Of a DNA stretch of 40,834 nucleotides, positions 3,847 through 23,025 are shown one piece after another (position 1 is the stretch's first letter; each line of letters starts with the position of its first letter). The notes below the pieces were generated by a model. That model was not told where the DNA came from. It did no database searches and worked only from the letters and a program-made list of their open reading frames with translations. Location: contig JAFZFH010000003.1 of the NCBI GenBank assembly GCA_017555965.1, forward strand, positions 1-40,834. Reading direction: 5' to 3'. The translations under genes and the position numbers were made by a program. This DNA is from Bacteroidales bacterium. Its GTDB lineage: Bacteria > Bacteroidota > Bacteroidia > Bacteroidales > UBA932.

Positions 3847-3901
3847 AACTCCCTCCCATATAGAGAACATGCTCATCTCGACTATGGGAGGGAGTTTTTT
3901 T
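3847..3901 (+). terminator. Rho-independent terminator after GH43
   Basis: 14-bp arms AACTCCCTCCCATA (3847-3860) and TATGGGAGGGAGTT (3883-3896) are followed by a T run. The loop is 22 nt. A near-identical copy lies at 6523-6576. Confidence 0.85.
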
Positions 3902-3946
3902 GCAACAAATAATGAAACTGTTCGTCATAATTGTAAAATTAAGATT

Positions 3947-6503: not shown

Positions 6504-6576
6504 ACCGCTGACATAAAAAAGCAACTCCCTCCCATATAGAGAACATGCACATCTCGACTATGGGAGGGAGTTTTTT
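6480..6576 (+). repeat. Copy of the 3804-3901 block (GH43 stop plus terminator)
   Basis: 6480-6572 aligns with 3804-3896 at a constant offset of 2676, with a single base difference (3873 T versus 6549 A) and one fewer T in the run after it. Similarity continues weakly (GTTCGTCATA) toward the start of the next receptor gene. This marks an ancestral duplication of a [GH43 end, terminator, receptor] unit. The rest of the gap, 6577-6667, holds only a short 6-bp hairpin CGTCCG/CGGACG (6627-6648) ahead of paralogue B. Confidence 0.9.
6523..6576 (+). terminator. Duplicated terminator (orphan)
   Basis: Same 14-bp stem as at 3847-3901 with a run of T. No intact gene now precedes it, so it probably insulates paralogue B from transcription coming from upstream. 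Confidence 0.8.
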
Positions 6577-6667
6577 GCAACATATCATGAACCAGTTCGT
6601 CATATTTACAAAATCAACATCAGGGCCGTCCGATAAAAGTTCCGGACGATCAGTATAATCATTATAG

Positions 6668-9013
6668 ATGAAATCAAGTATGAGACGAACTTTCAAGAAA
6701 ATGATTCTTTGTGCCGTCGCTCCACTCGTGTTGGCGGCACTTCAGACGAACGCATCTGCACAATCCATCAAAGGAAGGGTCATCGATGAAAACAATGAGC
6801 CGTTGGCCTATGCCAATGTAATGCTTCAGGAGGCAGATTCAACCTACATCAGCGGAGCTATGACCGACACACTCGGAGTCTTCGTCCTCGAAGCGGCCCC
6901 GCAGGCTGCCATGATCCATATTACCTTCATCGGATATGACCCCTACATAAAAGCAGTACACGGCAAAGACATGGGCACGATCCGTATGATCCCCGATTCG
7001 GAAATGCTCAGCAAGGCTGTGGTCAAAGGCTATCTCCCCAAGACTGTAATCAAGGGTGATGCCTTCGTGACTCCCATAGAGAACAGCGTACTCGCCGAAG
7101 CCGGGTCTGCAAACGATGTACTGGATAAACTTCCAGGTGTTATCTCAAAGGATGGAGAATATGAAATCATCGGCAAAGGAACTCCTATAATATACATCAA
7201 TGGTCGCCTTATACGGGACAACTCCGAACTGGAACAGCTCAGTTCGAGGGAAATAAAGTCCGTGGATGTAGTCCAGAACCCTGGCGCAAGATACGATGCG
7301 ACCGTAAAGGCAGTAATCAGGATACATACTATCAGGAGGGTGGGCGACGGATTCGGATTCGATGTACGCTCATCATGGCTCCAGTCGGAATACACAAACC
7401 TGAATGAAACCGTAAACATGAACTACAGGCACAACAGCCTTGACATATTCGGCTCCCTCATGTATTCAGATTCTGAGTCTTTTCAGGATTCCGAGACTTA
7501 TCAGACCTTGAGTTCAAGGAAGATGCTTGAGACCGTGCAGACAGGACATCGCGACGGAAGGAAGCAGGGGCTTACCCCGACCATTGGTCTCAACTGGCAG
7601 ATAAGCGACAACCACTCTACCGGTATACGATACAGGCCAAGTATCAGCCTGAGAACATCGTCCACTCAGGATTTCAGTACAATCGCGATCTTGGACGGAG
7701 TATTGGACGACGAGACCAATACTGTCGCCGAGGGACATTCCGACCCGAGCCCTACCCATGAACTGAACATGTACTACAACGGCACTGCAGGCAAGCTGAC
7801 TATAGACTTCAATGCCGATTTCCATGACATCAGATCCAACGGCAAAACAACTTACAACGAGTTGAGCCAGCATAAGGATGACCGCATCCTCAACACAGTC
7901 AGCAATATTCACAACAGACTCTATGCATCAAAGCTGACCCTCACCTACCCTATCCTCGGCGGCGTACTCACTGCCGGAAGCGAGTATTCCAATACCAGCA
8001 GATATGACGAATATCTGAACGGCGAAGGCTACATACCAAGCGCATTCACGACCATCAGGGAGTTCGAGACCAGTGCTTACGCAGAATACATCTTCCCGTT
8101 CAGATTCGGCAGTCTGACAGTAGGGGCAAGATATGAACATATCGGATTCAGATACTACGAGAATGAAGTCTTCAAGGAAGACCAGAGCAGGACATATGAC
8201 AACATCTATCCTAATGCATCTTTCTCAGCAGTTGCCGGTCCTTTCCAGCTCCTCCTCAATTACTCGGCGAAGACCGCCAGACCTCACTACAGCTATCTTA
8301 GCAACTCACCCATTTACACCGACCGTTACTGCATGCAGCAGGGAAATCCCCTGCTCAGACCGGAGATGAACCATGATGTATCCCTTGCAGCCGTATGGAA
8401 GTTTATCCAGGCCGGAATCAGCTATCAGACAGTAAAGAATGCAATCCTCGAGACCGCCACAGCACAAGAGGGAACCGACAATGCCATACTCATCTATCAC
8501 GACAATTTCCACAAGAACATACCGACAATGCAGGTAATGGTCGCCGCCACACCTACCATAGGAATATGGTCTCCACGCCTTACCTTGGCCCTTGTCAAGC
8601 AATGGCTTACAATGGAATCATTTGGTAAGGAAGTCAAGATGAATCAGGCTCTTCCTGTAATTCAGTTCGACAACACCTTGACCTTGCCGAAGGGATTCAC
8701 ATTGAACTGCGACTATTCCTTCCAGGGAAAAGGAGACAGCAGGGTCTATCATCTACAGAAGTCTACCAACACCCTGGACGCATCGATCAGAAAATCGTTC
8801 CTCAAGAATGCGCTTGCAGTCGAAGTATTCGCAAACGACATTCTTGATGATGAGTCAACAGAAATCATGATATACAGCAAGGCCCACTCGATCAGACAGT
8901 TGAGCAAGAGGTCCATGCGCACGTATGGAATCACCCTCCGATACAGCTTCAACACCACCCAGAGTAAATACAAGGGAACAGGTGCCGGAGCACAGCAGAA
9001 AAGAAGGATGTAA
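6668..9013 (+). CDS. TonB-dependent-receptor-like outer membrane protein (paralogue B)
   Basis: This 781-residue protein is clearly homologous to paralogue A along its length: shared PLAYANV, FIGYD, ENSVLAEAGSANDVL, GKGTPIIYINGRLIRDNSELEQL and NPGARYDATV. Signal peptide about 1-32 (ASAQ), CarboxypepD_reg-like domain 33-115, plug 125-240, then the barrel. The C-terminus is SKYKGTGAGAQQKRRM. ATG 6668 and ATG 6680 (MRRTF) are both possible starts. It sits after the duplicated terminator in the same relation as A after GH43, so A and B are tandem duplicates whose intervening GH43 copy was lost. It ends convergently with the GH2 gene. Confidence 0.88.
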   Translation: MKSSMRRTFKKMILCAVAPLVLAALQTNASAQSIKGRVIDENNEPLAYANVMLQEADSTYISGAMTDTLGVFVLEAAPQAAMIHITFIGYDPYIKAVHGKDMGTIRMIPDSEMLSKAVVKGYLPKTVIKGDAFVTPIENSVLAEAGSANDVLDKLPGVISKDGEYEIIGKGTPIIYINGRLIRDNSELEQLSSREIKSVDVVQNPGARYDATVKAVIRIHTIRRVGDGFGFDVRSSWLQSEYTNLNETVNMNYRHNSLDIFGSLMYSDSESFQDSETYQTLSSRKMLETVQTGHRDGRKQGLTPTIGLNWQISDNHSTGIRYRPSISLRTSSTQDFSTIAILDGVLDDETNTVAEGHSDPSPTHELNMYYNGTAGKLTIDFNADFHDIRSNGKTTYNELSQHKDDRILNTVSNIHNRLYASKLTLTYPILGGVLTAGSEYSNTSRYDEYLNGEGYIPSAFTTIREFETSAYAEYIFPFRFGSLTVGARYEHIGFRYYENEVFKEDQSRTYDNIYPNASFSAVAGPFQLLLNYSAKTARPHYSYLSNSPIYTDRYCMQQGNPLLRPEMNHDVSLAAVWKFIQAGISYQTVKNAILETATAQEGTDNAILIYHDNFHKNIPTMQVMVAATPTIGIWSPRLTLALVKQWLTMESFGKEVKMNQALPVIQFDNTLTLPKGFTLNCDYSFQGKGDSRVYHLQKSTNTLDASIRKSFLKNALAVEVFANDILDDESTEIMIYSKAHSIRQLSKRSMRTYGITLRYSFNTTQSKYKGTGAGAQQKRRM

Positions 9014-12189: not shown

Positions 12190-14010
12190 TTACTTGCTGA
12201 CAACCAGCAGGAAGCCGCCGCGAGGCTGGCACTCTACCTGGGTCGGAAGCTTCTTGATATCGGTGATCTGCCATGGCTGGTCGGCTGTATCGGCAAACAT
12301 GCGGGCCTTCACCTTCTTCTTGCCGAGGAAGCTGAGGTCGGTTTCAAGAGTCATCGGCTCATCGGTTCCGTTGATTCCTGCAACATACCATACATTACCG
12401 CTTCTGCGGGCAAGTACCGCACTCACTCCCGGATATCCGCTGACATAGCGTGTCTCATCCCATACTGCCGGCAGCTGGCCGAGGAAGTCCTGCACTTCCT
12501 GCGGCTGAGCAAGGAAGCTCTCAGGGCTATCTGCAAGATGCTGGAGACCGCTCTCGAAAAGCACTGTGAGCGCAAGCTCGTGTGCATTCGAGGTGATGTG
12601 CGGATGCTGCGAGTCGCTGAAAGCGCATGGAGTATAGTCCATAGGACCGATTACGTTGCGGGTGAACGGGAGCACGGCATTATGGCTCGCCGCCTTCTTT
12701 GTGAATGTAGGCACATTGTTATACCACTCTGCACCATAAACGCCCTCGGTTGTGAGGAGGTTCGGGAATGTACGCTGCCATCCGCGAGGAATCGGCGCGC
12801 CATGGAAGTTGATCAGCATGTTGTGGCGGGCTGCACACTCCATGAGTTCGATACAGTAGTCCATGTTCACCTGGTTGTCACCGCTGAAGAAATCGACCTT
12901 CACACCCGCAACACCAAGGCTTTCGCACCATGCAAATTCCTTCTCACGGTCCTCAGGGTCATTCAGGCGGAACTTCGGACCGGGAGCACCATTGATCCAA
13001 CCGATCGAAGAGTTGTACCATATCATCGGCTTGATGCCCTTCGAATGGGCATAAGCGATCGCATCCTCGACTGTCTTGCCGTCCTTCATCTCGTCCCACT
13101 CGGCATCGATGAGCACGTACGGAAGACCGAGGGTCGCGGCCATGTCGACGTATCTCTTGATGATATTATAGTCATTCGATCCGTGGTTGTTCGCCCAATA
13201 GATCCACGAAACAACACCCGGCTCGATCCAACTCACGTCCTTATATTGTGTCGGCTCGCTCACATCTGTAACCAATGTGGACTCGACGACATCCGCGAGA
13301 GTACCGATGATTGCGACACGCCATGGCGTATGCCATTCCCCTGTCAGAGGAACCTCGTTCGGTTCAACGACGACCTTATAGCGTTCGCCGTCGTTATAAA
13401 GGCTAGAACCGCTCTGATTTCTTTCGATATTTGCCTCGGTTATGAGCGCGAAGACGCCATCGGCGGACTCCATCAACGCCGGATAACCCCAGCGGTTGCT
13501 CCATCCCTCTTCCGAAACGGAAGCTCCGCTGAACCCTCGGATCGGCTTCACCTTATAGGTTGTGTTCATCGGGAAATAGCCCTCATATGACTCCGTCCAC
13601 TGCATGAACCAGCGCTTTGTTCCCTCCGGAATCACATAGACAGTGTTTTCCTGAGGCTGCTTCTCGTTCTGAAGGCCGGTATATTCATAGCGGAATGCTA
13701 CACCATCATTATAAAGTCTTACTACCATATAGGCGTTCTGACCGACCGGAGCCTTATATTCATTAGCCTCATTGGTACAGTGCAGGCGCTTGCCTTCCAG
13801 CATCTGGTAATCATCCTTGACCTTTCTTACAAAAGTCAGTTCATTAAAAGGAACATCTGCAAGATGGAGAGCCTTCTGATTTTCGTAACTTACAACCAGC
13901 TGGTTACCAGAAACTTCTGCAGATAATTTACCGTTAGGAGATACTGGGTTCTGGGCATGCATCATCATGGCTGCACCCAGGAGAAGAATTGAGGTTAGAA
14001 GTTTTTTCAT
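12190..14010 (-). CDS. Secreted GH97 glycosidase, probably a retaining alpha-galactosidase
   Basis: The 606-residue protein has a signal peptide (1-20, MMHAQ), an N-terminal beta-super-sandwich (SPNGKLSAEVS) and a TIM barrel (VSWIYWANNHG, YVLIDAEWDE, VKVDFFSGDNQ). GH97 enzymes split into inverting alpha-glucosidases (SusB type) and retaining alpha-galactosidases; the Asp in GVKVDFF (D373) occupies the nucleophile position of the retaining type, with E422 or E428 of TTEGVYGAEW as acid/base. The start was moved from an upstream in-frame codon to ATG 14010 because that opens the signal peptide and the upstream part is a hairpin. The GH2 gene follows; together they could trim galactosylated oligosaccharides. 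Confidence 0.87.
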   Translation of the reverse strand: MKKLLTSILLLGAAMMMHAQNPVSPNGKLSAEVSGNQLVVSYENQKALHLADVPFNELTFVRKVKDDYQMLEGKRLHCTNEANEYKAPVGQNAYMVVRLYNDGVAFRYEYTGLQNEKQPQENTVYVIPEGTKRWFMQWTESYEGYFPMNTTYKVKPIRGFSGASVSEEGWSNRWGYPALMESADGVFALITEANIERNQSGSSLYNDGERYKVVVEPNEVPLTGEWHTPWRVAIIGTLADVVESTLVTDVSEPTQYKDVSWIEPGVVSWIYWANNHGSNDYNIIKRYVDMAATLGLPYVLIDAEWDEMKDGKTVEDAIAYAHSKGIKPMIWYNSSIGWINGAPGPKFRLNDPEDREKEFAWCESLGVAGVKVDFFSGDNQVNMDYCIELMECAARHNMLINFHGAPIPRGWQRTFPNLLTTEGVYGAEWYNNVPTFTKKAASHNAVLPFTRNVIGPMDYTPCAFSDSQHPHITSNAHELALTVLFESGLQHLADSPESFLAQPQEVQDFLGQLPAVWDETRYVSGYPGVSAVLARRSGNVWYVAGINGTDEPMTLETDLSFLGKKKVKARMFADTADQPWQITDIKKLPTQVECQPRGGFLLVVSK

Positions 14011-14012
14011 AA

Positions 14013-14050
14013 AAAATGCGAGCATATTTCTGTAAATATACTCGCATTTT
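14013..14050 (-). promoter_or_regulatory. Long hairpin with T tract ending at the GH97 start codon
   Basis: Arms AAAATGCGAG / CTCGCATTTT extend through TATATTT / AAATATG to a 17-bp stem (one G-T pair) with a 4-nt loop. On the minus strand the stem is followed by TTTTTT and at once by the ATG at 14010. It looks like an intrinsic terminator of receptor C or an attenuator of the GH97-GH2 pair. Confidence 0.75.
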
Positions 14051-14075
14051 GTCTGATTAACAAATATTTCGGTCA

Positions 14076-14158
14076 GATCCCCGGTCAAGCCGGGGATGAC
14101 ATGAGGAAAGCCGGGGATGACATGAGGAAAGCCGGGGATGCATAGGGCCGGGGATGAC
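14076..14158 (+). repeat. Palindromic repeat (family R1) with 21-bp tandem tail
   Basis: The perfect 25-bp unit is at 14076-14100. It is followed by degenerate 21-bp units ATGAGGAAAGCCGGGGATGAC-like at 14101-14121 and 14122-14141, and by a truncated unit whose last base (14158) is also the first base of the receptor C stop triplet (14158-14160 on the plus strand). It fills the gap between receptor C and the GH97 leader. Confidence 0.85.
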
Positions 14159-16551
14159 TACATACGGTTTTTGGCGTCGGATCCGGCACCTGAACCTTTG
14201 TACTTGTTGCTTGATGAGTTGAAGGTGTAACGGAGTGTGACATTCAGACGATGATAGTTCTGACCACTTTTCTGATGCAACTGAAAATATCCGTTGTCCA
14301 GCAGCAGTTCACTGGTCCTCATCTGCAGAACATCGCTCATGCTTATACGAAGACAGAGAGCATCATTCTTCAGCCAGCATTTCTGCACTACCAGACCAAG
14401 ATTGTATGTATTCCTCAAGAAGTTAAATTGCATCATGTCTCCCTTTGTCATCACATTCAGATTGGCCTCAAGCTGCCAGCTGCCCTTGAAGCGGAATGCG
14501 TTGTTCAGATCTATGAACACCACAGGCTTCTTTGCCGTCAACGTACGCTGGCCGTCAGGGTGGGATGGATCAAGAAGCGTCTGCTTGTAGAAATAACGCT
14601 GTATTCCGACCGTCCAGTTAGGACTGTAGCATCCGAAAGTCGGAGATGCAGAAAGGAATGCCGCAACATTGCGCAACGGCTGATCCAGATTGATCTGCCT
14701 CAGCAGAGTCACGCCCTCGTCATTGTACAGAGATGCTCCCTGAGTCAGAGTATTGTCCCTTCTCTCGTAAGCGATAAAGAAATTGAGCCACTGATAACCT
14801 ACGTTCGCGCTAACCTCGTATATGGTCTCATTCTTCAGCTTTGAGTTACCCTGCTCCAGAGAGAACGAGTTCATATAGTTTATATTCTCATTCAATCTGT
14901 CATAGCTCGGACGCGCAACCTTGGCGCTATATGCCAGGGATGTTCTGAACTGACCGAACTGATTTGACCATGATATGGATGGGAACAGGTCGTCTGTATA
15001 TCTTGCAAGCGACTGTTCCGGATTCAGAATGTCCTGATAATCGAAACCGACATGCTCATAACGAAGACCGGCGCTGAGATTTCCAAACTTTTCAAGGCTG
15101 AATGCATAATTCACGAAACCTGCAACATTCTTTTCCTTCACATCAGAATCTGTAGAAGGCAACGGATAACCGGTCATCGTAAAACTGTTCGTACGGTCTA
15201 CAAAACTCATCTCCGTACCTGCCTGAAGCTGTCCTTTCCATACCGGGTACGAAAGCACAAGTTTTGTCGCCCACAATTCAGATGTGTTCTTATCCTCATG
15301 CCTCATCAGCGACTCTCCCCTGGTGCCGATTTCAGAAAGATCCGTAACCTTACCATTTTTGCGAGTGACAAAATCTACGTTAAAATCGATATTCAGCTTG
15401 CCTGCCTGTCCGTTATAATAGGCATTACCTGTCCAATAATATGGCATGCTCATGACCTCGTTGCCTTCGGTGATGCTCTCGTCAATATAATCAGCAGCAG
15501 GATTGACACTGTTTCTGAAATCAACAAAATTATTGATCCTGTGGTCACCGGTCGGATTGATGTTGTTGCGGGTCTCTATACGTAAACCGACAGAATGGTT
15601 CTGAGAAATCTGCCAGTTGAATCCCAGGTTTGCATTGAGATTGTGATTCACATTGTGACTGAGCCACCATGAATCCTGATTGATATTTATAAGCTGGCCA
15701 TTGTTTACAAACCAGCTTGTCTGGACGGGCTGACTGATAATGACATTGTTCCTGTCGGCATAATTCACCATTCCGAAGATATCGACGGAATTGTAGCGAT
15801 ATTTCATGTTGAGGGTCGTGCTCGGATCACTATAGCCATATACCAGATCCTGATCGTTTCCGACATTGACATTGAATCCGAAACCTTCACCCTGCATCTT
15901 TACAGTCCTTATCCTTACGACAGCAGATATGGCAGCATCATAGAGCGCTCCAGGATTCGTAATGACCTCGACATTCTGTATCTCGCTAGAATGCAGAGTC
16001 TTAAGCTCTTCCTTATCCTGAACCTTACGTCCGTTGAGATAAAATACCGGTTTTCCCTTACCTATCACCTCAAGTTCATCATCTCTTTGGGTCATACCAG
16101 GAACCTTCGATAAAATCTCATGGGCCGTTCCTGAATTGCTCAGCACTGTTCCCTGAATCGTTGTAATCATGGAGTTTCCAGTAAGCTTCGTCTTAGGCAT
16201 GACCGCCCTCACTACTGCCTCAGCAAGAAAACTGCTATCCTCAGCAAGACGCACTACCTGTCCATCAACTTCCACAACCGGAAGGCAAACTGTACTGTAT
16301 CCCAAGTTTGAGAACTGCACCACGCCATGATCCGCCTCCACAGAAAGAGTGAACTTTCCCTGCTCATCAGTCATCGCACCAGTCACTATGGATGAATCCG
16401 GAAGAGACAGAAGCACCACATTCACAAACTGCAGTTCTGAGCCATCAACATCAACAACCTTTCCCGATATTTCCCTGGTCTGGGCATGACTCACCCAGGA
16501 CATCACCGACATCAAGGTCAGCAACGCCAACTTAAAATATTTACGGCTCAT
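14158..16551 (-). CDS. TonB-dependent-receptor-like outer membrane protein (paralogue C) in sigma-factor operon
   Basis: 797 residues: signal peptide 1-24 (VSHAQ), CarboxypepD_reg-like domain about 26-105 (GKVVDVDGSELQFVNVVL), plug about 115-235 (EILSKVPGM, GKGKPVFYLNGRKVQDKEELKTL, NPGALYDAAI), barrel to the last strand LNVTLRYTF, then the tail NKYKGSGAGSDAKNRM. The start codon overlaps the stop of the DUF4252 gene in TAATG, indicating translational coupling. Co-transcription with an ECF sigma factor suggests sigma-controlled expression, or a role for the receptor in the signal. A palindromic repeat abuts the stop codon. The ligand is unknown. Confidence 0.88.
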   Translation of the reverse strand: MSRKYFKLALLTLMSVMSWVSHAQTREISGKVVDVDGSELQFVNVVLLSLPDSSIVTGAMTDEQGKFTLSVEADHGVVQFSNLGYSTVCLPVVEVDGQVVRLAEDSSFLAEAVVRAVMPKTKLTGNSMITTIQGTVLSNSGTAHEILSKVPGMTQRDDELEVIGKGKPVFYLNGRKVQDKEELKTLHSSEIQNVEVITNPGALYDAAISAVVRIRTVKMQGEGFGFNVNVGNDQDLVYGYSDPSTTLNMKYRYNSVDIFGMVNYADRNNVIISQPVQTSWFVNNGQLININQDSWWLSHNVNHNLNANLGFNWQISQNHSVGLRIETRNNINPTGDHRINNFVDFRNSVNPAADYIDESITEGNEVMSMPYYWTGNAYYNGQAGKLNIDFNVDFVTRKNGKVTDLSEIGTRGESLMRHEDKNTSELWATKLVLSYPVWKGQLQAGTEMSFVDRTNSFTMTGYPLPSTDSDVKEKNVAGFVNYAFSLEKFGNLSAGLRYEHVGFDYQDILNPEQSLARYTDDLFPSISWSNQFGQFRTSLAYSAKVARPSYDRLNENINYMNSFSLEQGNSKLKNETIYEVSANVGYQWLNFFIAYERRDNTLTQGASLYNDEGVTLLRQINLDQPLRNVAAFLSASPTFGCYSPNWTVGIQRYFYKQTLLDPSHPDGQRTLTAKKPVVFIDLNNAFRFKGSWQLEANLNVMTKGDMMQFNFLRNTYNLGLVVQKCWLKNDALCLRISMSDVLQMRTSELLLDNGYFQLHQKSGQNYHRLNVTLRYTFNSSSNKYKGSGAGSDAKNRM

Positions 16552-17042
16552 TACTTGATTGATTTTGTCATCATGGATTCGAAATCGTTCCTGTTCATGG
16601 AACCTTCCAGGCAGATGAACTGTACGGAATCTCCTTCCTGGGCCAGCATTACAAGACTTGATATATTCTTATCATTACCGGCCGTATATATCCTCATGGT
16701 GTTGCCGCTGTCCTTTGCCTCCATGAGCATCTCGAAACGGCCGGACTTGATTATGGACTGGACCTCCTGCTTAAGTTCTGCCGCCTGAGCCTTGTCAGAC
16801 ACACTCAGAAGATAGAAACCTTCGAATGAACGCACAAGAGGAGCTATATCAACTTTCTCTCCGTCTGATGCTTCGATATCTAGGTTGGGAAGCTGTCCAA
16901 TCATCCTGAACATTGTCGGAGAAATATAGACCGCAGATACTCCATTAGAATCAGAGTACTTATTGTAAATTGTCTTTCCACTCTGTGCGTATGCTCCCAC
17001 TGTCATAAGAAGCAATACAACTATCGCATAAATTCTTTTCAT
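16551..17042 (-). CDS. DUF4252 secreted protein
   Basis: 163 residues with signal peptide 1-20 (VGAYAQ). The rest is a compact DUF4252 domain (MFRMIGQLPNLDI, FEGFYLLSVSD, DKNISSLVMLAQEGDSVQFICLEG). The family is Bacteroidota-specific and of unknown function, frequently beside small ECF sigma operons. It is coupled to receptor C by a one-base TAATG overlap and lies 5 bp after the putative anti-sigma gene. A related DUF4252 lipoprotein opens the same operon. A periplasmic role in signal sensing or receptor assembly is inference. Confidence 0.8.
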   Translation of the reverse strand: MKRIYAIVVLLLMTVGAYAQSGKTIYNKYSDSNGVSAVYISPTMFRMIGQLPNLDIEASDGEKVDIAPLVRSFEGFYLLSVSDKAQAAELKQEVQSIIKSGRFEMLMEAKDSGNTMRIYTAGNDKNISSLVMLAQEGDSVQFICLEGSMNRNDFESMMTKSIK

Positions 17043-17047
17043 AATTC

Positions 17048-17458
17048 TTATTTGTCTGAAAATACAGAAGTTGCCTTCTCTATTACTTGTTCTGTTTCTC
17101 CGGCCATTGCCAGACTCTTGTTGATACCAGCAGATATCGTTGCAAATGCCTTTTCCAATTCCGCATACGCCTGATACGGATCATCAAACGTATCCTTCGG
17201 CTGACCACATCTCTGCGCAACACCCAAACCCGCACCTGCCATGACGGCAACTGAGGCAGCGGCTGCAGCATACCTTACAATCCTACTGCTGTTCTGGCTT
17301 GCAGATTCGTCTTCTGTCAGATTTTCGACCATCTCAACAGCGTCAAGAGTCTCCTTGATTCGAAGCCCGAAGCCATCAGGAACGGCAATGCCTTCATCCA
17401 TGGACACAGCCTCCAGCTGCTCCAGACTCATGTTCTCTATGTCCTTTATTGACTTCAT
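17048..17458 (-). CDS. Putative one-TM anti-sigma factor
   Basis: 136 residues: a polar N-terminal part (about 1-59, acidic, SLEQLEAVSMDEG), one transmembrane segment (61-81, alanine-rich VRYAAAAASVAVMAGAGLGV) and a periplasmic tail with DTFDDPYQAYAELEKAFATI. It overlaps the ECF sigma gene by 4 bp (ATGA), the usual coupling for a sigma/anti-sigma pair. It has no FecR domain and no zinc-binding HxxxCxxC motif. The anti-sigma role is inferred from position and topology; no characterised family was recognised. Confidence 0.6.
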   Translation of the reverse strand: MKSIKDIENMSLEQLEAVSMDEGIAVPDGFGLRIKETLDAVEMVENLTEDESASQNSSRIVRYAAAAASVAVMAGAGLGVAQRCGQPKDTFDDPYQAYAELEKAFATISAGINKSLAMAGETEQVIEKATSVFSDK

Positions 17459-17937
17459 AACCTGATCTTTGACTTTAATGTTTTTCTTGCCATTGTCATA
17501 AGTACCCTTACATGTACTTTGGAGAGCCCGGTACGGTCCGATATATCCTCGTACTCCAATCCGTCTATCGCCCTCATCTTCAGAACTGTCCGCTGCTTGT
17601 CCGGGAGTTTTTCCATTTCTTCCAGCAGATATTGGAGAGCATCCTTCATATCTGTCTGACTGTCCTGACTGTCATCTTCCAGATGAGGTACCTTTTCGAG
17701 CGGCTCTGCCTTTCTGACCATCCTCTTTCTGATCCTGTCTATACAGATATTCTTCAGAAGGGATATTCCGTATGCCGTCGGATTCTGTATGCCTTCCAGA
17801 CTGCTGCGGGCCGCCCAAAGCTTCAGATACAGCTCCTGTACGGCATCTTCGGCGTCAGCTTCCGACTCCAGAAGATAATAAGCCACACGATAGAACCTGT
17901 CAGAGAGAGGAATCCATATGTTGCTGAAATTACTCAT
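17455..17937 (-). CDS. ECF-type RNA polymerase sigma factor
   Basis: 160 residues. Sigma region 2 is visible at about 12-75 (FYRVAYYLLESEADAEDAVQE, NICIDRIRKR) and region 4 at about 108-155 (LPDKQRTVLKMR, YEDISDRTGLS, VHVRVLMTMARKTL). No region 3 or extra C-terminal domain is seen. The gene overlaps the upstream lipoprotein gene by 8 bp and the downstream anti-sigma gene by 4 bp. It probably directs core polymerase to envelope genes, perhaps including its own operon. Confidence 0.93.
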   Translation of the reverse strand: MSNFSNIWIPLSDRFYRVAYYLLESEADAEDAVQELYLKLWAARSSLEGIQNPTAYGISLLKNICIDRIRKRMVRKAEPLEKVPHLEDDSQDSQTDMKDALQYLLEEMEKLPDKQRTVLKMRAIDGLEYEDISDRTGLSKVHVRVLMTMARKTLKSKIRL

Positions 17938-18454
17938 TCACAACATCCTTGAGTATTCCAAGATCCTTCAGATTTACCTTGCCGAAAAAACATATCATAT
18001 TGCACTCTTCAGGAATATTGATGATCACATCATTTATCTTCTCACCATCCTTTGAAAGAGTGCCGTAGATTTCCACCTTTTCGCCACTGTCATTTACCTC
18101 CATGATCTTTTCTGCGCCGTCAAGAAGCAAAGCCGCCTCTTTGCGGAAAGCCTGTTTATCGCTGTCGGATGCACCTTCATACTCAACCACCACAAACTTG
18201 CTTATTCCGCTCAGCACATTGAGCGCTTCCTTATCTTCCGCAGATCCGGCAGTTGCATTTGCAAGCATCTTCATCAGTCCCATGGCCATGCCTCCGAAAG
18301 ACATAACCTCAAACCCATCCTTACCAGTATACTTATTTACGAGCTTCTCTGTCGCACCCGCATCAACCTTCACCTTATTTGCCGCAGGTGACTTACAGCT
18401 GACAGGAGTTGTCAATAAGACGGCAAGCATTATAATGGAAAATAATTTCTTCAT
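17930..18454 (-). CDS. DUF4252 lipoprotein
   Basis: 174 residues. A lipobox (TTPVSC, lipidated C20) predicts membrane anchoring. The mature part resembles DUF4252 (VMSFGGMAMGLMKMLANAT, FVVVEYEGASDSDKQAF, KINDVIINIPEECNMICFFG). It is the first gene of the minus-strand operon with an ECF sigma factor, anti-sigma, a second DUF4252 protein and receptor C. Placement before the sigma factor and in the periplasm makes it a candidate sensor; this is inference. Confidence 0.78.
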   Translation of the reverse strand: MKKLFSIIMLAVLLTTPVSCKSPAANKVKVDAGATEKLVNKYTGKDGFEVMSFGGMAMGLMKMLANATAGSAEDKEALNVLSGISKFVVVEYEGASDSDKQAFRKEAALLLDGAEKIMEVNDSGEKVEIYGTLSKDGEKINDVIINIPEECNMICFFGKVNLKDLGILKDVVNE

Positions 18455-18524
18455 ATACTTTACTTTTTAAGTTACTTTTTTGAGCACTCACCTATACAGA
18501 CGCACTTGCAGGATTTTTGTTAAT

Positions 18525-18560
18525 AAAAAAGTCAGCACAAATATAACATTTTGTGCTGAC
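18525..18560 (-). terminator. Terminator of receptor D, with a promoter-like box in its stem
   Basis: 11-bp arms GTCAGCACAAA (18531-18541) and TTTGTGCTGAC (18550-18560) with an 8-nt loop; on the minus strand the stem is followed by TTTTTT (18530-18525). The same DNA holds TATATTTG (18545-18538), a -7 match for the DUF4252-sigma operon starting at 18454, though no -33 TTG was found. Confidence 0.75.
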
Positions 18561-18567
18561 CCTGCAT

Positions 18568-20880
18568 TTACATTCGGTTCTGAGCCTCTTTTCCGGCTCC
18601 TGTGCCCTTATATCGGCTCTTTGAAGCATTGAAGGTGTATCTGAGACTTACATCCAGACGGTGATTGTTTCTTATCGGATGCTCTTTATAGATAAAGAAT
18701 CCGTCATCGGAATACACATCCTGCATGCTGCACTTGAGCACATCGGCGACACTCACTCTCAGGCAGAGGGCATCATTCTTCAGCCAGCATTTCTGCACGA
18801 CGAAACCAAGGTTATACGCCGACGTGGTCATCCTGAAGTTGATATTATCGCCCTTGGTGCGGATGTTCATGTTCGCTTCCACCTGCCAGCTATGTTTGAA
18901 GCGGAACGCGTTATTGAAGGCAAAATTGAAGATAGGTCTGTCAAATCCCATCACATTCCACTGCTTCCTCACTCCGGCACTCCAGTTCGGGCTGTACACT
19001 CCCCATGTCGGGTTAGCCGACACAAAGGCAGTGGCACTGCGCATCGGTTCGGAAAGATTGCTGGCTCTCACAAGCAGTATACCCTCGCCATTATAGTCAT
19101 AGAACAGATTTGTCAAGGTGTTGTCCCTACGTTCATATGCGACCGAAAGACTGAGCCATTTATATCGAGCATTCAATCCAGCCTCCTGCATTCTTTCATT
19201 CTTAAGCTTGGAGTCTCCCTGCATGAGGGTGAACGAATTGATGTAGGTGATCTTGTCCCCCAGATCATTATAACTCGGGCGGCTGGTCCTCAGACTGTAG
19301 GACAGCGATGCATGCACAGGACCGAACTGTCCCGACCACGCAAGATTCGGAAAGAACTCATCCTGATAACGGCTCATGCTGCCAGAAGCATCCAGCAGGT
19401 CTGTATAATTGAATCCGACATGCTCATATCGCACTCCTGCGTTCACCGAGCCGAACTTCTGAAGGTTGAAACTGTAGGAAACAAAGGCCGAGATATTATC
19501 TTCCTCAACATTGGAATCGGATGAAGGGAGAGGATAGTTGGTGATCGAATGAGTGTTGCCTCGATCGACAAGCACCGCCTCCGTTCCCGCCTCAAGCTGT
19601 CCTTTCCATACCGGATACGTAAGCACAAGTTTAGCCGCTGCAAGTCTTGAAGTCGTCACACCTTCCTGAAGCATCTCCGTATGTTCCGTATCATTCACGA
19701 CCGATGATATATCGTTGACCAGATCCTTCCTGTTCAAAAGATAATCCGCATTGAAGTTTACACTCAGCTTCCCGAAAAGACCGCTGTAATAGACATTGCC
19801 TTCCCAATCGTATGGAGAATTGCGAACCTCCTCCTGATCAGACGCGTTATGAATCAGACTCTCTGAAGATCCGAACTTGCGATGGATATCAGTAACCGAC
19901 GAGAGATATGTACCCGCTTCTACTGTCTGATGCGTCACCACACGCGCTCCGACCGAATGATTTTCTGCCAGCTGCCAATTGAATCCAAAATTATAGTCCA
20001 TGGCACTGGAGAACCAATGATTTTTCGAGACATGTTCCTGGATGACCTCATCGTACTCATTCAGAAACATATGGCCATTGTCTTCGTAGATGCTTATCTC
20101 ATCCCATTTCCAATAGTTCACAGAACCGAACATGTCGAAATTCTTGAAACGGTAGCGGAGATTCATTCCGGCACTGGGGTCGCTGGCCCCGAACATAAGG
20201 TCTTGATTATTAGCCACATTCAGATCAAATCCAAAACCTTCGCCTTCGCGACGGAGAGTCTTGATGCGCACGACAGCCGTTACAGTTGCATCATACTGTG
20301 CTCCGGGATTGCTGATAACCTCGACGCTCTGGACATCCTCCGAACGCATCTGCTTGAGTTCATTCATGTCGTGGAGTTTCCTTCCGTTTATATAGACTAC
20401 CGGCGAACCCTTGCCGATGACCTCAAGTTCAGTGCCTTTTGCCATCATTCCCGGTACCTTGCCCAGCATCTCCAGAACTGTTCCGGAACTGCCAAGCACA
20501 GTTCCCTGAATATCAGTCACCATGGAATTGGCGGTAATCCTGGTCTTGACCATCATTCCGGTTGCAACCGAACCTTCAAGCATGGCGGCGTCCTCCTTAA
20601 GAACAATCTGCATATTCTCAGAAGGAGAGACATATATAGTTTCATACCCGAGCATGGCAACCATCAGCACTCCATCTTCCTCTGTCGGAAGAACGAACGA
20701 ACCATCTTCATCGGTCACGACACCGCTCACAACAGTCGAATCCGCTTTCGACAGAAGTACTACGTTAGCATATGATACGGGATTGTTTTCCTCATCAACA
20801 ACACGTCCCTTCCAATCCTCCAGGGCGTAAGAGGTAAGGCCTGTTGAAATCAACAGGCAAAGAGCCATAAATATTTTCAT
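18568..20880 (-). CDS. TonB-dependent-receptor-like outer membrane protein (paralogue D) in second sigma operon
   Basis: 770 residues: signal peptide about 1-19, CarboxypepD_reg-like domain about 22-95 (GRVVDEENNPVSYANVVLL), plug about 105-225 (EMLGKVPGM, GKGSPVVYINGRKLHDMNEL, NPGAQYDATV), barrel, last strand LDVSLRYTF, then RYKGTGAGKEAQNRM. It lies 19 bp after the two-TM putative anti-sigma gene, so it is the final gene of that operon. It is most similar to paralogue C (shared YEHVGF, SYNDLGDKI-like, VQKCWLKNDALCLRVS). The ligand is unknown and no SusD is present. Confidence 0.88.
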   Translation of the reverse strand: MKIFMALCLLISTGLTSYALEDWKGRVVDEENNPVSYANVVLLSKADSTVVSGVVTDEDGSFVLPTEEDGVLMVAMLGYETIYVSPSENMQIVLKEDAAMLEGSVATGMMVKTRITANSMVTDIQGTVLGSSGTVLEMLGKVPGMMAKGTELEVIGKGSPVVYINGRKLHDMNELKQMRSEDVQSVEVISNPGAQYDATVTAVVRIKTLRREGEGFGFDLNVANNQDLMFGASDPSAGMNLRYRFKNFDMFGSVNYWKWDEISIYEDNGHMFLNEYDEVIQEHVSKNHWFSSAMDYNFGFNWQLAENHSVGARVVTHQTVEAGTYLSSVTDIHRKFGSSESLIHNASDQEEVRNSPYDWEGNVYYSGLFGKLSVNFNADYLLNRKDLVNDISSVVNDTEHTEMLQEGVTTSRLAAAKLVLTYPVWKGQLEAGTEAVLVDRGNTHSITNYPLPSSDSNVEEDNISAFVSYSFNLQKFGSVNAGVRYEHVGFNYTDLLDASGSMSRYQDEFFPNLAWSGQFGPVHASLSYSLRTSRPSYNDLGDKITYINSFTLMQGDSKLKNERMQEAGLNARYKWLSLSVAYERRDNTLTNLFYDYNGEGILLVRASNLSEPMRSATAFVSANPTWGVYSPNWSAGVRKQWNVMGFDRPIFNFAFNNAFRFKHSWQVEANMNIRTKGDNINFRMTTSAYNLGFVVQKCWLKNDALCLRVSVADVLKCSMQDVYSDDGFFIYKEHPIRNNHRLDVSLRYTFNASKSRYKGTGAGKEAQNRM

Positions 20881-20899
20881 TGTTCAGATTATTATGCTG

Positions 20900-21268
20900 T
20901 CAGATACGGACAATACCTGTCCATCTTACGGCCATTACAGTCGCCATGAAACCCAATATCGTAATCGTCATCGGATTTCGAATACCTGAGATATGGAAGA
21001 CGTATCCCGCAGTGAATATTACCAAGCAGAAGATTATGCTTATCAAAGAGGCAATCAACGCCTGTCTCTTTCTACGCTTCGCTTGTCCCTGGAAAATCTC
21101 TTTTACCTTCCTTATATTTTCCTGGACGTCGGTATCACTTCCGGCGAGTGAAGCCGGTACGGGCAAGGAGTCTATCTGACGGATCAGGTTTGCCATGAAA
21201 GCATCGTTGCCCGATACAGGAATCCTGTTTTCCTGCATGAATCTTCTTATGTCCTGTTCTGTCTTCAT
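20900..21268 (-). CDS. Putative two-TM anti-sigma factor
   Basis: 122 residues. The N-terminal ~66 are cytoplasmic-type and charged (EQDIRRFMQENRIPVSGNDAF, VKEIFQGQAKRRKR). Two hydrophobic helices follow (about 69-92 and 98-116), ending TGIVRI almost at the second helix, so no periplasmic domain remains. It overlaps the ECF sigma gene by 4 bp. Position and topology suggest a membrane anchor or anti-sigma, but the sequence differs from the one-TM protein at 17048 and from FecR. Confidence 0.6.
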   Translation of the reverse strand: MKTEQDIRRFMQENRIPVSGNDAFMANLIRQIDSLPVPASLAGSDTDVQENIRKVKEIFQGQAKRRKRQALIASLISIIFCLVIFTAGYVFHISGIRNPMTITILGFMATVMAVRWTGIVRI

Positions 21269-21768
21269 AATGTCTCCAAATATTCCTTCAGACGTCTGCG
21301 GCCGCGCGAAAGGTGCGACCTGATGGTGCCGGAAGGCATTCCTGTGATTATTTCTATTTCCTTTATAGATTTTTCTTCAATGTAAAAAAGCAGTATGACC
21401 GTCTGTTCCTGCAAGGAAAGATTTCCTATGGCCATATATAACTGCTGATTTTCGTATATCACGTCCATCGAAGAATCTGCCGGGCCATCCGGCGGTCCTA
21501 CTGAAGAAGTATCCTCAAAAGAAAGCCATTCAAATTCCTTCCCCCGTTTCTTCTGGGAGTCATACCAGCAGTTGAAGGCTATCCTGAAGAGCCACGTCGA
21601 GAACCGTGAGCGACCTTCGTAGCGTTCAAAAGAGAGATATGCCTTCAGAAGAGCCTCCTGCGCCAGATCATCTGCACGGAAGCCGTCGCCTGAGCACAAC
21701 CCGCGAAGGAACCTTCTCAAAGATTCCTGTTCCCGGGTAATCATCTCTATGAACTGCTCCTTGGTCAT
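21265..21768 (-). CDS. ECF-type RNA polymerase sigma factor
   Basis: 167 residues. Region 2 at about 10-80 (FLRGLCSG, RADDLAQEALLKAYLSFERY, FSTWLFRIAFNCWYD) and region 4 at about 110-165 (LSLQEQTVILLFYIEEKSIKEI, GMPSGTIRSHLSRGRRRLKEYL). It is only distantly similar to the sigma at 17455; the more typical GTIRSHLSRGR recognition helix suggests a different promoter set. The ATG overlaps the DUF6249 stop by one base (TAATG) and the 3' end overlaps the anti-sigma by 4 bp. Confidence 0.93.
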   Translation of the reverse strand: MTKEQFIEMITREQESLRRFLRGLCSGDGFRADDLAQEALLKAYLSFERYEGRSRFSTWLFRIAFNCWYDSQKKRGKEFEWLSFEDTSSVGPPDGPADSSMDVIYENQQLYMAIGNLSLQEQTVILLFYIEEKSIKEIEIITGMPSGTIRSHLSRGRRRLKEYLETL

Positions 21769-22169
21769 TACTTGCGCTCTTCAGCTTCTATCTGTGGCTT
21801 GAGGAACTTCATACCATAGAAAAAAGATACAAGAAGACCTATTCCAGCCGCAAGAAGCGGAAAGCCCGGATAATATCCCCAGTCAGAGAACGAAGCCAGA
21901 TCGAAAGCGGCAGCCAAGATGAACATAAGTCCCATTATGGTCAGAATAATACCTCCGCAAAGTCTGTTAACTAATCTTTCCTTTACAGACGTCACTTTGG
22001 ATTTGACAGCCAAAATGGTATTCGGATCTATATCCGCACCATTTTCAATTGCCTTGATCATTACATTCATCTTTTGCTCAGACTTCTTCGTTGCCGCCTG
22101 TGCAATGAAGAAGACTATCATGACCGGCATTATACAGCTGACGAAAATGGGAATGATAATATTTTCCAT
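21768..22169 (-). CDS. DUF6249 membrane protein
   Basis: 133 residues with three hydrophobic helices (about 3-24, 70-90 and 99-121). The cytoplasmic loop between helices 1 and 2 carries KKSEQKMNVMIKAIENGADIDPN, resembling the DUF6249 pattern often found beside ECF sigma genes in Bacteroidota. ATG 22169 (MENIII) was chosen over an upstream in-frame ATG at 22199 because it starts the first helix. It is translationally coupled to the sigma factor. The role is unknown; it may be part of the signalling complex. Confidence 0.72.
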   Translation of the reverse strand: MENIIIPIFVSCIMPVMIVFFIAQAATKKSEQKMNVMIKAIENGADIDPNTILAVKSKVTSVKERLVNRLCGGIILTIMGLMFILAAAFDLASFSDWGYYPGFPLLAAGIGLLVSFFYGMKFLKPQIEAEERK

Positions 22170-22263
22170 AATATTAGAATTTTGAATTAGACATCTCATC
22201 AGGGATCTCGTCCCGTTCCATACATTAGACTACCAGACTCTGCAGAATGTTGCAGCACCATAT

Positions 22264-22335: not shown

Positions 22336-23025
22336 TTACTGAGCAGTAATATAATTCAAGACCTTTACAAGATCATCCGTTTCATTCCATTTAATCTTGT
22401 TTGACTTCAGGAATGCATTGAAAGCCTTCTTGTCGATATTATCCATAGAAGAAACACCTGTCTTATTGGCTGGAATCATTTCATTGCCGATGACAAGATA
22501 TCTGTTGGTCCTGACCGGTAGTTTTTCAGAGTCATTCTTAATTGCATGAAGATCCTCATAAACATCAGTCAGCAGATAACCGTCATACTGATTGATTGCA
22601 TTTTCGTTATAAAGATATGTCTTGGTCGTGGTACTGCTCAACGACGAGGTTCCATACGCACCATCATTCTTTATCACAGACGAATAATTCGCTCTTTTCT
22701 CCTCTACGACATAGCCTCTTTCTGCCTCCGCAAGAACCTTCAGCATCTTACCCTGTACAAAACGGAACACGTCCTCTCCAATGACAAGACCGGTCACGCC
22801 CCAAGTATCCACCTCTCTGATCTTGCCCTTGTCGATATAGTGGGCCCTGCTCAGATTGAGATTAATATTGAAACGAGCCTTGTTTGGGGCCTTATTTGCA
22901 CGAATCAGTTCACCTTCCACGAAATCCGGGAAGAGATACGGCCAGTTGACTGTAGGAGATTCTTCCTGTGCATATGCAGATACAGCCAGCAGGATGCCTA
23001 AACAGAGGAGAAACAGTTTCTTCAT
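22336..23025 (-). CDS. Secreted protein of unknown function
   Basis: 229 residues. Signal peptide 1-19 (SAYAQ). The mature part has PYLFPDFVEGELI, a beta-rich segment NINLNLSRAHYID, VTGLVIGEDVFRFVQGKML and a C-terminal lysine-rich helical part (KKAFNAFLKSNKIKWNETDD). There are no cysteines in the mature part and no membrane helix, so it is probably a soluble periplasmic protein. It begins 9 bp after aspS on the same strand and ends at a strong terminator, so it is probably read with aspS. No family was recognised; the layout resembles small conserved Bacteroidales secreted proteins. Confidence 0.75.
   Translation of the reverse strand: MKKLFLLCLGILLAVSAYAQEESPTVNWPYLFPDFVEGELIRANKAPNKARFNINLNLSRAHYIDKGKIREVDTWGVTGLVIGEDVFRFVQGKMLKVLAEAERGYVVEEKRANYSSVIKNDGAYGTSSLSSTTTKTYLYNENAINQYDGYLLTDVYEDLHAIKNDSEKLPVRTNRYLVIGNEMIPANKTGVSSMDNIDKKAFNAFLKSNKIKWNETDDLVKVLNYITAQ

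Follow-up and report, generated by a model that had tools for sequence, protein, structure and literature searches.

The stretch of DNA considered here, referred to as the window, comprises 40,834 nucleotides of contig JAFZFH010000003.1 from a Bacteroidales bacterium of the UBA932 lineage (assembly GCA_017555965.1). Its minus strand carries two adjacent sets of genes, each combining an extracytoplasmic function (ECF) sigma factor with a short membrane protein and an outer-membrane receptor of the OMP_b-brl_3 family. Module 1 encodes, in this order, a DUF4252 protein, the sigma factor, a protein of 136 amino acids (aa) with one transmembrane (TM) segment, a second DUF4252 protein and receptor C; module 2 encodes a DUF6249 protein, the sigma factor, a 122-aa protein with two TM segments and receptor D. 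Two further OMP_b-brl_3 receptors, A and B, lie on the plus strand. A first-pass annotation had described the two modules as envelope signalling systems devoid of FecR, in which the receptor serves as sensor, output, or both. The analysis reported here favours the second of these roles: the receptors are probably outputs of small ECF circuits that control themselves, whether these act in cis or in trans. Four things legible in the sequence underlie this reading, namely the gene order, the conserved promoters, the sharing of promoters between modules and some distant receptors, and the persistence of module cores without an adjacent receptor. The features concerned are the following.

22225 to 22252, minus strand: ECF-type promoter of module 2, CAAC-N18-GTCTAA (one match in the window, two in its own genome)
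21768 to 22169, minus strand: DUF6249 membrane protein, 133 aa from 22169 (Pfam PF19762, 36.5 bits, cut-off 33)
21265 to 21768, minus strand: ECF sigma 2, 167 aa (Sigma70_r2 and r4_2 above cut-off)
20900 to 21268, minus strand: 122-aa two-TM protein, presumed anti-sigma 2 (position, hydropathy, ATGA overlap with the sigma gene)
18568 to 20880, minus strand: receptor D, OMP_b-brl_3 with a CarboxypepD_reg-like domain (PF14905, 148.8 bits; same place in L135 and L136)
18528 to 18563, minus strand: terminator-like hairpin 3' of receptor D (14-pair stem followed by a T tract)
18498 to 18522, minus strand: ECF-type promoter of module 1, TAAC-N16-CGTCT (sole match in the window)
17930 to 18454, minus strand: DUF4252 protein a, with signal peptide, possible lipoprotein (PF14060, 48.1 bits)
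17455 to 17937, minus strand: ECF sigma 1, 160 aa, PG0214/GFO_1088 family (NF058625, 147.4 bits, cut-off 130)
17048 to 17458, minus strand: 136-aa one-TM protein, presumed anti-sigma 1 (weak match to the anti-sigma model NF052375; TM at residues 63-81; ATGA overlap)
16551 to 17042, minus strand: DUF4252 protein b, with signal peptide, probably periplasmic (PF14060, 85.7 bits; AlphaFold 2 model with a predicted local distance difference test score of 88)
14158 to 16551, minus strand: receptor C, OMP_b-brl_3 (PF14905, 159 bits; TAATG overlap with DUF4252 b)
3901 to 3928, plus strand: third ECF-type promoter TGCAAC-N16-CGTCAT, before receptor A (inside an over-long listed reading frame)
3947 to 6253, plus strand: receptor A, OMP_b-brl_3 (PF14905, 158 bits; frame listed from 3869, start re-placed at 3947)
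6576 to 6603, plus strand: third ECF-type promoter TGCAAC-N16-CGTCAT, before receptor B (pattern match)
6668 to 9013, plus strand: receptor B, OMP_b-brl_3 (PF14905, 164.6 bits)

The list of open reading frames (ORFs), together with Pfam and NCBIfam searches, bore out the gene orders and positions proposed for both modules, every gene being open at its place. The tight overlaps are equally real: ATGA joins each sigma gene to that of the short membrane protein, which is thereby translationally coupled to it, and TAATG joins DUF4252 b to receptor C. Hydropathy agrees with one TM segment in the 136-aa protein and two in the 122-aa protein. The DUF6249 frame is listed from 22199, and a start at 22169 better suits the promoter distance (52 and 63 bases in two relatives). 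Receptor D is set apart from module 1 by the hairpin (18563-18528) and an ECF-type promoter (18522-18498), so that the modules look as if transcribed as two units; a scan for hairpins gave 7 terminator-like sites, against 6.1 expected in shuffles. Beyond the ends of the modules, a 21-bp tandem repeat of 3.7 copies (unit AAGCCGGGGATGACATGAGGA, window 14087-14158) abuts the stop codon of receptor C, and a 229-aa secreted protein matching no Pfam or NCBIfam family above cut-off is encoded at 22336-23025. Counterparts of the latter are also found upstream of module 2 in two related loci, L135 (two copies) and L136.

Both module receptors belong to the family that had been named for them, far above the PF14905 cut-off of 27 bits; C and D are 46-47% identical to each other, and A and B 48%. 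The CarboxypepD_reg-like domain, slightly over its Pfam cut-off in C and D, begins directly past the signal peptide, at residue 28 and residue 24, respectively. It is no mark of signalling, since it also matches SusC homologues of the PDB in their N-terminal domains. The SusC/RagA model TIGR04056 is not reached (48.1 bits for receptor D against a cut-off of 368.25; C is unlisted). Pfam calls no STN signalling domain in C or D, as the first-pass annotation had stated, and it likewise calls none in the receptors of two other loci, L145 and L152, although by eye these receptors have 75 additional residues at the N-terminus that resemble STN. These two loci (L145, 688-4284; L152, 1000-4651), from Prevotella/Prevotellaceae, are the canonical counterpart of the modules, operons of a sigma gene, a FecR_C protein of about 180 aa and a receptor, which in L145 belongs to OMP_b-brl_3.

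Both sigma factors have sigma-70 regions 2 and 4 above the Pfam cut-off, and sigma 1 passes NF058625, a model whose names point to PG0214 and GFO_1088, which sigma 2 does not (67.1 bits against 130). Both DUF4252 proteins exceed the family cut-off of 23.9 bits and fall short of that of the GFO_1090 model NF058626 (80.3 and 22.7 against 150). That DUF4252 is a lipoprotein, as had been proposed, is unsure, with a cysteine at position 20 here and none in the signal peptides of the L135 and L136 relatives. In Porphyromonas gingivalis, PG_0214 (sigma), PG_0215 (putative anti-sigma) and PG_0216 (DUF4252) change together, according to the available part of PMC10101095, as do the sigma, hypothetical and DUF4252 proteins PG_0985-PG_0987 according to PMC10434189. 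With sigma 1 above the NF058625 cut-off and a matching locus in P. gingivalis, the module 1 core belongs to a known kind, on record for PG_0214-PG_0216.

The short membrane proteins are candidate anti-sigma factors. The absence of FecR had been claimed for the modules and is confirmed: Pfam reports none in any module protein, and neither FecR nor FecR_C matches either short protein or any sequence in the alignments of their families (59 for the 136-aa protein, 26 for the 122-aa protein), while the same library does detect FecR_C in L145 and L152. Nor is either protein fused to an outer-membrane barrel in the manner of Dma or Reo, both being short and matching no barrel family. The 136-aa protein is made up of a short cytosolic part, its TM segment and a periplasmic part that holds the most conserved stretch of the family (PKDTFDDP..AYAE); this stretch would suit a partner such as DUF4252. 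In CnrY-like (class II) anti-sigmas, two cytosolic helices embrace the sigma factor. The AlphaFold 2 model of the 136-aa protein places helices at residues 4-8, 12-19 and 30-48 before the TM helix, with a predicted template modelling score of only 0.26. By hydropathy, the periplasmic part of the 122-aa protein is almost nil. It could be argued that these proteins are membrane effectors, and that the sigma factors are controlled transcriptionally or by DUF4252 and DUF6249. The periplasmic location of the conserved stretch would fit an effector, as would the database results: neither window protein attains a curated anti-sigma cut-off (19.2 bits against 100 for the 136-aa protein with NF052375, and no NCBIfam anti-sigma family for the 122-aa protein), and Pfam matches no anti-sigma family in the 59 members of one family or the 26 of the other. 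However, 40 of the 59 proteins in the 136-aa family match NF052375 weakly at E<=0.01 (best E 5.6e-07), both genes are tightly coupled to a sigma gene, and PG_0215, in the equivalent place in P. gingivalis, is named a putative anti-sigma in the portion of PMC10101095 available. Effectors of this kind are therefore unlikely.

Each module has a promoter of its own, and both are conserved. A dyad search run without any preset pattern found TAAC-N16-CGTC upstream of module 1 in 79 of 95 regions and CAAC-N18-GTCT upstream of DUF6249 in 38 of 44, the sets including the window and a few duplicate genomes; in three shuffles of each set the commonest dyad occurred at most 6 times. For ECF promoters, a flavobacterial study of transcription start sites used a CGT box at -10 as the distinguishing feature (PMC9723704, available part). 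In the own genome of the window, which is 86% complete, TAAC-N16-CGTCT has 5 exact sites, one at module 1 and four overlapping coding sequence (32 for the reversed pattern), and CAAC-N18-GTCTAA has 2, one at module 2 and one at a DUF6249 operon on contig C18 (6 for the reversed pattern). Outside coding sequence, exact copies thus stand only before the two modules and the paralogous DUF6249 operon. By sequence comparison, sigma 1 and sigma 2 probably read the promoters of their own modules. The operon on contig C18 (L418: 5342-6657, minus strand) is itself a second set of DUF6249, sigma and small-protein genes, with the module 2 type of promoter and no receptor after it.

A third promoter type concerns the receptors of the plus strand. 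TGCAAC-N16-CGTCAT has exactly 2 matches in the window, before A and before B, and none in 100 shuffles; as A and B share it, each of the four receptors in the window has an ECF-type promoter, and these promoters fall into three kinds. Elsewhere in the own genome, a receptor on contig C7 also lies behind this sequence, and no such site is listed for the receptor on contig C148. The latter contig carries a third sigma operon of this genome, made up of sigma, 149-aa protein and DUF2807, without a receptor (L417: 3018-4824, minus strand); its promoter, CTGCAAC-N16-CGTCTAT, resembles that of A and B. Its sigma factor is 70% identical to that of genome G222, where a receptor 89% identical to A lies within an operon ordered sigma, 151-aa protein, receptor, DUF2807, with CAAC-N16-CGTCTT upstream.

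The cores are widespread; the loci read in detail are a part of all relatives found. Relatives of the 136-aa protein occur in 59 and of the 122-aa protein in 12 of 199 genomes of the family, the own genome counted; at genus level, 224 of 400 genomes have the former, and 153 have a DUF6249 match at E<=0.001, which exceeds the curated cut-off in 110. A DUF4252 gene directly follows the 136-aa gene in 110 of 111 fetched relatives and another stands two genes before it in 96 (window excluded; L135 and L136 duplicate the G377 and G485 loci). In short, the orders sigma, small protein, DUF4252 and DUF6249, sigma, small protein recur in many relatives. The tight overlaps had further been taken to argue for a fixed complex. 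One that includes the receptor is not supported: the core mostly lacks an adjacent receptor in the relatives examined, some relatives place a receptor elsewhere behind the same ECF-type promoter, and in one clade the adjacent receptor has a housekeeping-type promoter of its own.

An OMP_b-brl_3 receptor directly follows the module 1 core in 5 of the 111 relatives (L287-L290 and L303; L304 gives a weak match of 192 bits), four of these five loci having been fetched because a receptor nearby had already been seen. A module 1 with its receptor in tight overlap was seen only in this window among the loci examined, and its nearest relatives (L259-L264) have no receptor at that place. For module 2, a receptor directly follows the 122-aa homologue in 3 of 45 loci (L135, L136 and L225). 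The 45 combine a set of 11 and one of 30, with 3 repeats, and L135, L136, L161, L167, L225, L418 and L419; the next gene lies outside the fetched stretch in at least 4 (L167, L248, L251, L256), and stretches of the 30-locus set end about 600 bases past the homologue. Among 80 named loci from receptor queries, the matched receptor adjoins a module in 2, L135 and L136, which are the nearest and come from Bacteroidales metagenome-assembled genomes. A FastTree phylogeny of 62 of 120 receptors, in which all 12 linked ones were kept and the unlinked thinned, implies at least 6 changes of linkage: twice with module 1, twice with module 2 and twice with other sigma factors. Of the two cases counted for module 1, one is no more than adjacency, given the housekeeping-type promoter in the gap. 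The idea that receptors joined the module 1 operon several times over was given up for the clade of L287-L290 and L303, four of its five loci being judged to have this promoter; the gap of L290 could not be judged, being cut by an over-long ORF start. As a separate observation, the module 2 locus L167 contains at 13395-15095 a single 566-aa frame with an ECF sigma region, the C-terminal end of which resembles, by eye, a strand of an outer-membrane barrel.

Module promoters also stand before distant receptors. Across 20 genomes, TAACA-N15-CGTCT has 24 sites in 15 genomes, 11 of them at module 1, 1 in G014 upstream of a distant receptor, at a distance of about 104 bases, and 12 inside other called ORFs. 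Among four further genomes of the G014 genus, G144 and G134 have a second module 1 site before a receptor; G590 has such a site too, having been chosen for that receptor, and G588 and G589 are G144 and G014 again. The module 2 pattern has 50 sites in nine genomes, most of them chosen for a motif-bearing receptor, and 30 of these sites were fetched (L358-L387). In G586, chosen for its receptor promoter, the 2 sites (control 5) lie at a receptor-less DUF6249 module and 35 bases before a distant receptor. A receptor 66% identical to the latter lies inside a module 2 operon in G245 (L225), with an ATGA overlap and a sigma factor 77% identical to that of G586. The receptor behind a module 1 promoter in G134 is 62-63% identical to these two, which have module 2 promoters, so that close receptor relatives occur behind either promoter type. 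Larger regulons of the module 2 type are possible in G584, G585 and G587, with 11, 10 and 10 sites against 7, 4 and 11 in reversed controls; some of the fetched sites in these genomes lie shortly before receptors, a DUF4252 gene (L383) or genes of small secreted proteins.

Taken over all fetched receptors, the strict module 1 pattern precedes 4 of 147 (0 of 919 other genes) and the strict module 2 pattern 5 of 147 (1 of 919). The broader pattern [CT]AAC-N15-19-CGTC occurs upstream of 25 of 86 deduplicated unlinked receptors and 21 of 553 other genes, with a Fisher p of 5e-12 that is too small because the genomes are kin; two altered control patterns were flat (3/86 vs 30/553 and 2/86 vs 11/553). 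This was a directed test, its patterns having been picked after the module promoters and the strict-pattern counts were seen. It replaced an unbiased dyad search upstream of the unlinked receptors, which included 100 coding bases and was swamped by coding signals.

Several observations nevertheless weigh against the receptors being outputs. The exact patterns would miss weaker promoters, and 61 of the 86 unlinked receptors have no ECF-type site. Reversed-pattern controls equal or exceed the site counts in most genomes, so that counts alone carry no weight and the evidence is the location of the sites. Several of the genomes with receptors in trans were selected since their receptor bore the motif; in G033 and G124, which belong to the G014 genus, the second site falls within other genes, and G058 and G165, of the window's genus, have no module 1 site before a receptor start. 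In the third promoter, the sigma operon has CGTCTAT where the receptors have CGTCAT. Mutual information between sigma factor and small protein gives no clear pairing, with physically implausible pairs near the top; the first inter-protein pair joins sigma residue 30 and small-protein residue 33 (94 loci, effective number 75). Receptor C, like that of L145, has a long branch in the tree, which makes its placement unsure. The housekeeping promoter of Bacteroidota has the consensus TAnnTTTG. The receptor gaps of L287, L288, L289 and L303 hold such an element, TACCTTTG, and no ECF motif.

These promoters, the rarity of linkage and the many receptors without an ECF-type site would all be expected if the receptors were chance neighbours, passive passengers that slipped behind sigma operons with no functional link to them. 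Such an origin would not account for the enrichment of ECF-type promoters before unlinked receptors, for the exact module promoters before some distant ones or for linkage having arisen more than once, and we consider it improbable.

If the receptors are outputs, the circuits would work as follows. The membrane anti-sigma, of 136 or 122 aa, would hold its sigma factor until an envelope cue releases it, and the freed sigma would transcribe its own operon from its own promoter, with few or no other sites of exact consensus. The STN-less receptor would be the outer-membrane product, made in cis here (sigma 1 driving C and sigma 2 driving D) and, in some relatives, in trans. DUF4252 in module 1 and DUF6249 in module 2 would be core members that may sense, buffer or assist. 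As the 122-aa protein is nearly devoid of a periplasmic part, sensing in module 2 would take place within the membrane or across it, perhaps together with DUF6249. The receptor may additionally provide feedback as a sensor. That it is instead the outer-membrane sensor, signalling through DUF4252 or DUF6249 and a minimal anti-sigma in a fixed complex, is the least probable of the readings considered: translational coupling in the window and the retention of receptor D next to module 2 in L135 and L136, and also in L225 from a different branch of the tree, speak for it, against which stand the core without adjacent receptor in most relatives, the lack of a Pfam STN domain, the nearly absent periplasmic part of the 122-aa protein and the 62-66% identical receptors behind promoters of module 1 (G134) and module 2 type (G586/G245).

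From the output reading a wider one can be drawn, tentatively and with roughly even chances: a system of receptor dosage in Bacteroidota free of FecR and STN, in which at least three ECF sigma factors of one genome (sigma 1, sigma 2 and that of C148) would each be devoted to OMP_b-brl_3 receptors lacking STN, whether in cis or in trans, lineages of receptors would have been rewired between sigma factors in the course of evolution, and sensing would fall to DUF4252 or DUF6249 with the minimal membrane anti-sigmas, not to the receptor.

The modules resemble several known systems in part. With FecI-FecR-FecA they share an ECF sigma factor, a membrane partner and an outer-membrane receptor in one operon, but no FecR or STN was found in the window modules; a FecR_C-bearing version adjoining an OMP_b-brl_3 receptor exists in Prevotella (L145). 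CnrY has a one-TM topology. CnrYXH of Cupriavidus is alike in outline, combining a short anti-sigma with a separate periplasmic sensor (available parts of PMC4598750 and PMC7406223); cue and partner differ. The P. gingivalis loci PG_0214-PG_0218 and PG_0985-PG_0987, of the GFO_1088 family, likewise have an ECF sigma, a putative anti-sigma or hypothetical protein and then DUF4252 in the published descriptions available; compared with these, the window has a second DUF4252 gene before the sigma gene and an OMP_b-brl_3 receptor ending the operon, and it differs from the GFO_1090 family in that both DUF4252 proteins are under cut-off. EcfO-Reo and Das-Dma (ECF21) also exert ECF control of surface traits in Bacteroidota without FecR; as described in the available parts of PMC13114119 and PMC13088901, their anti-sigmas span from cytoplasm to outer membrane, Dma with its own beta-barrel, whereas in the window the membrane proteins are 122-136 aa long and a gene of its own encodes the barrel. 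CirYZ-Spy of Phocaeicola vulgatus pairs ECF sigma and anti-sigma with a co-transcribed Spy-like periplasmic protein, the product there being a Spy-like chaperone and not DUF4252 or a receptor (PMC13114119, available part).

With the module 1 core already known, the part favoured as new is a FecR-free ECF circuit with an STN-less receptor as output. The open-access literature, subscription papers being mostly outside its scope, yielded no paper on OMP_b-brl_3 receptors as ECF outputs or on DUF6249 together with a sigma factor. According to one study (PMC7406223), a class I anti-sigma lies near only 6% of the ECF sigma factors of Bacteroidetes, and the control of the rest is left open there; the two families of small proteins are concrete candidates for this control. 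The proposed sensor, the receptor, becomes the probable output. The conserved module promoters make the prediction and testing of regulons direct, and promoter type suggests a simple rule by which distant receptors may be assigned to their sigma factors.

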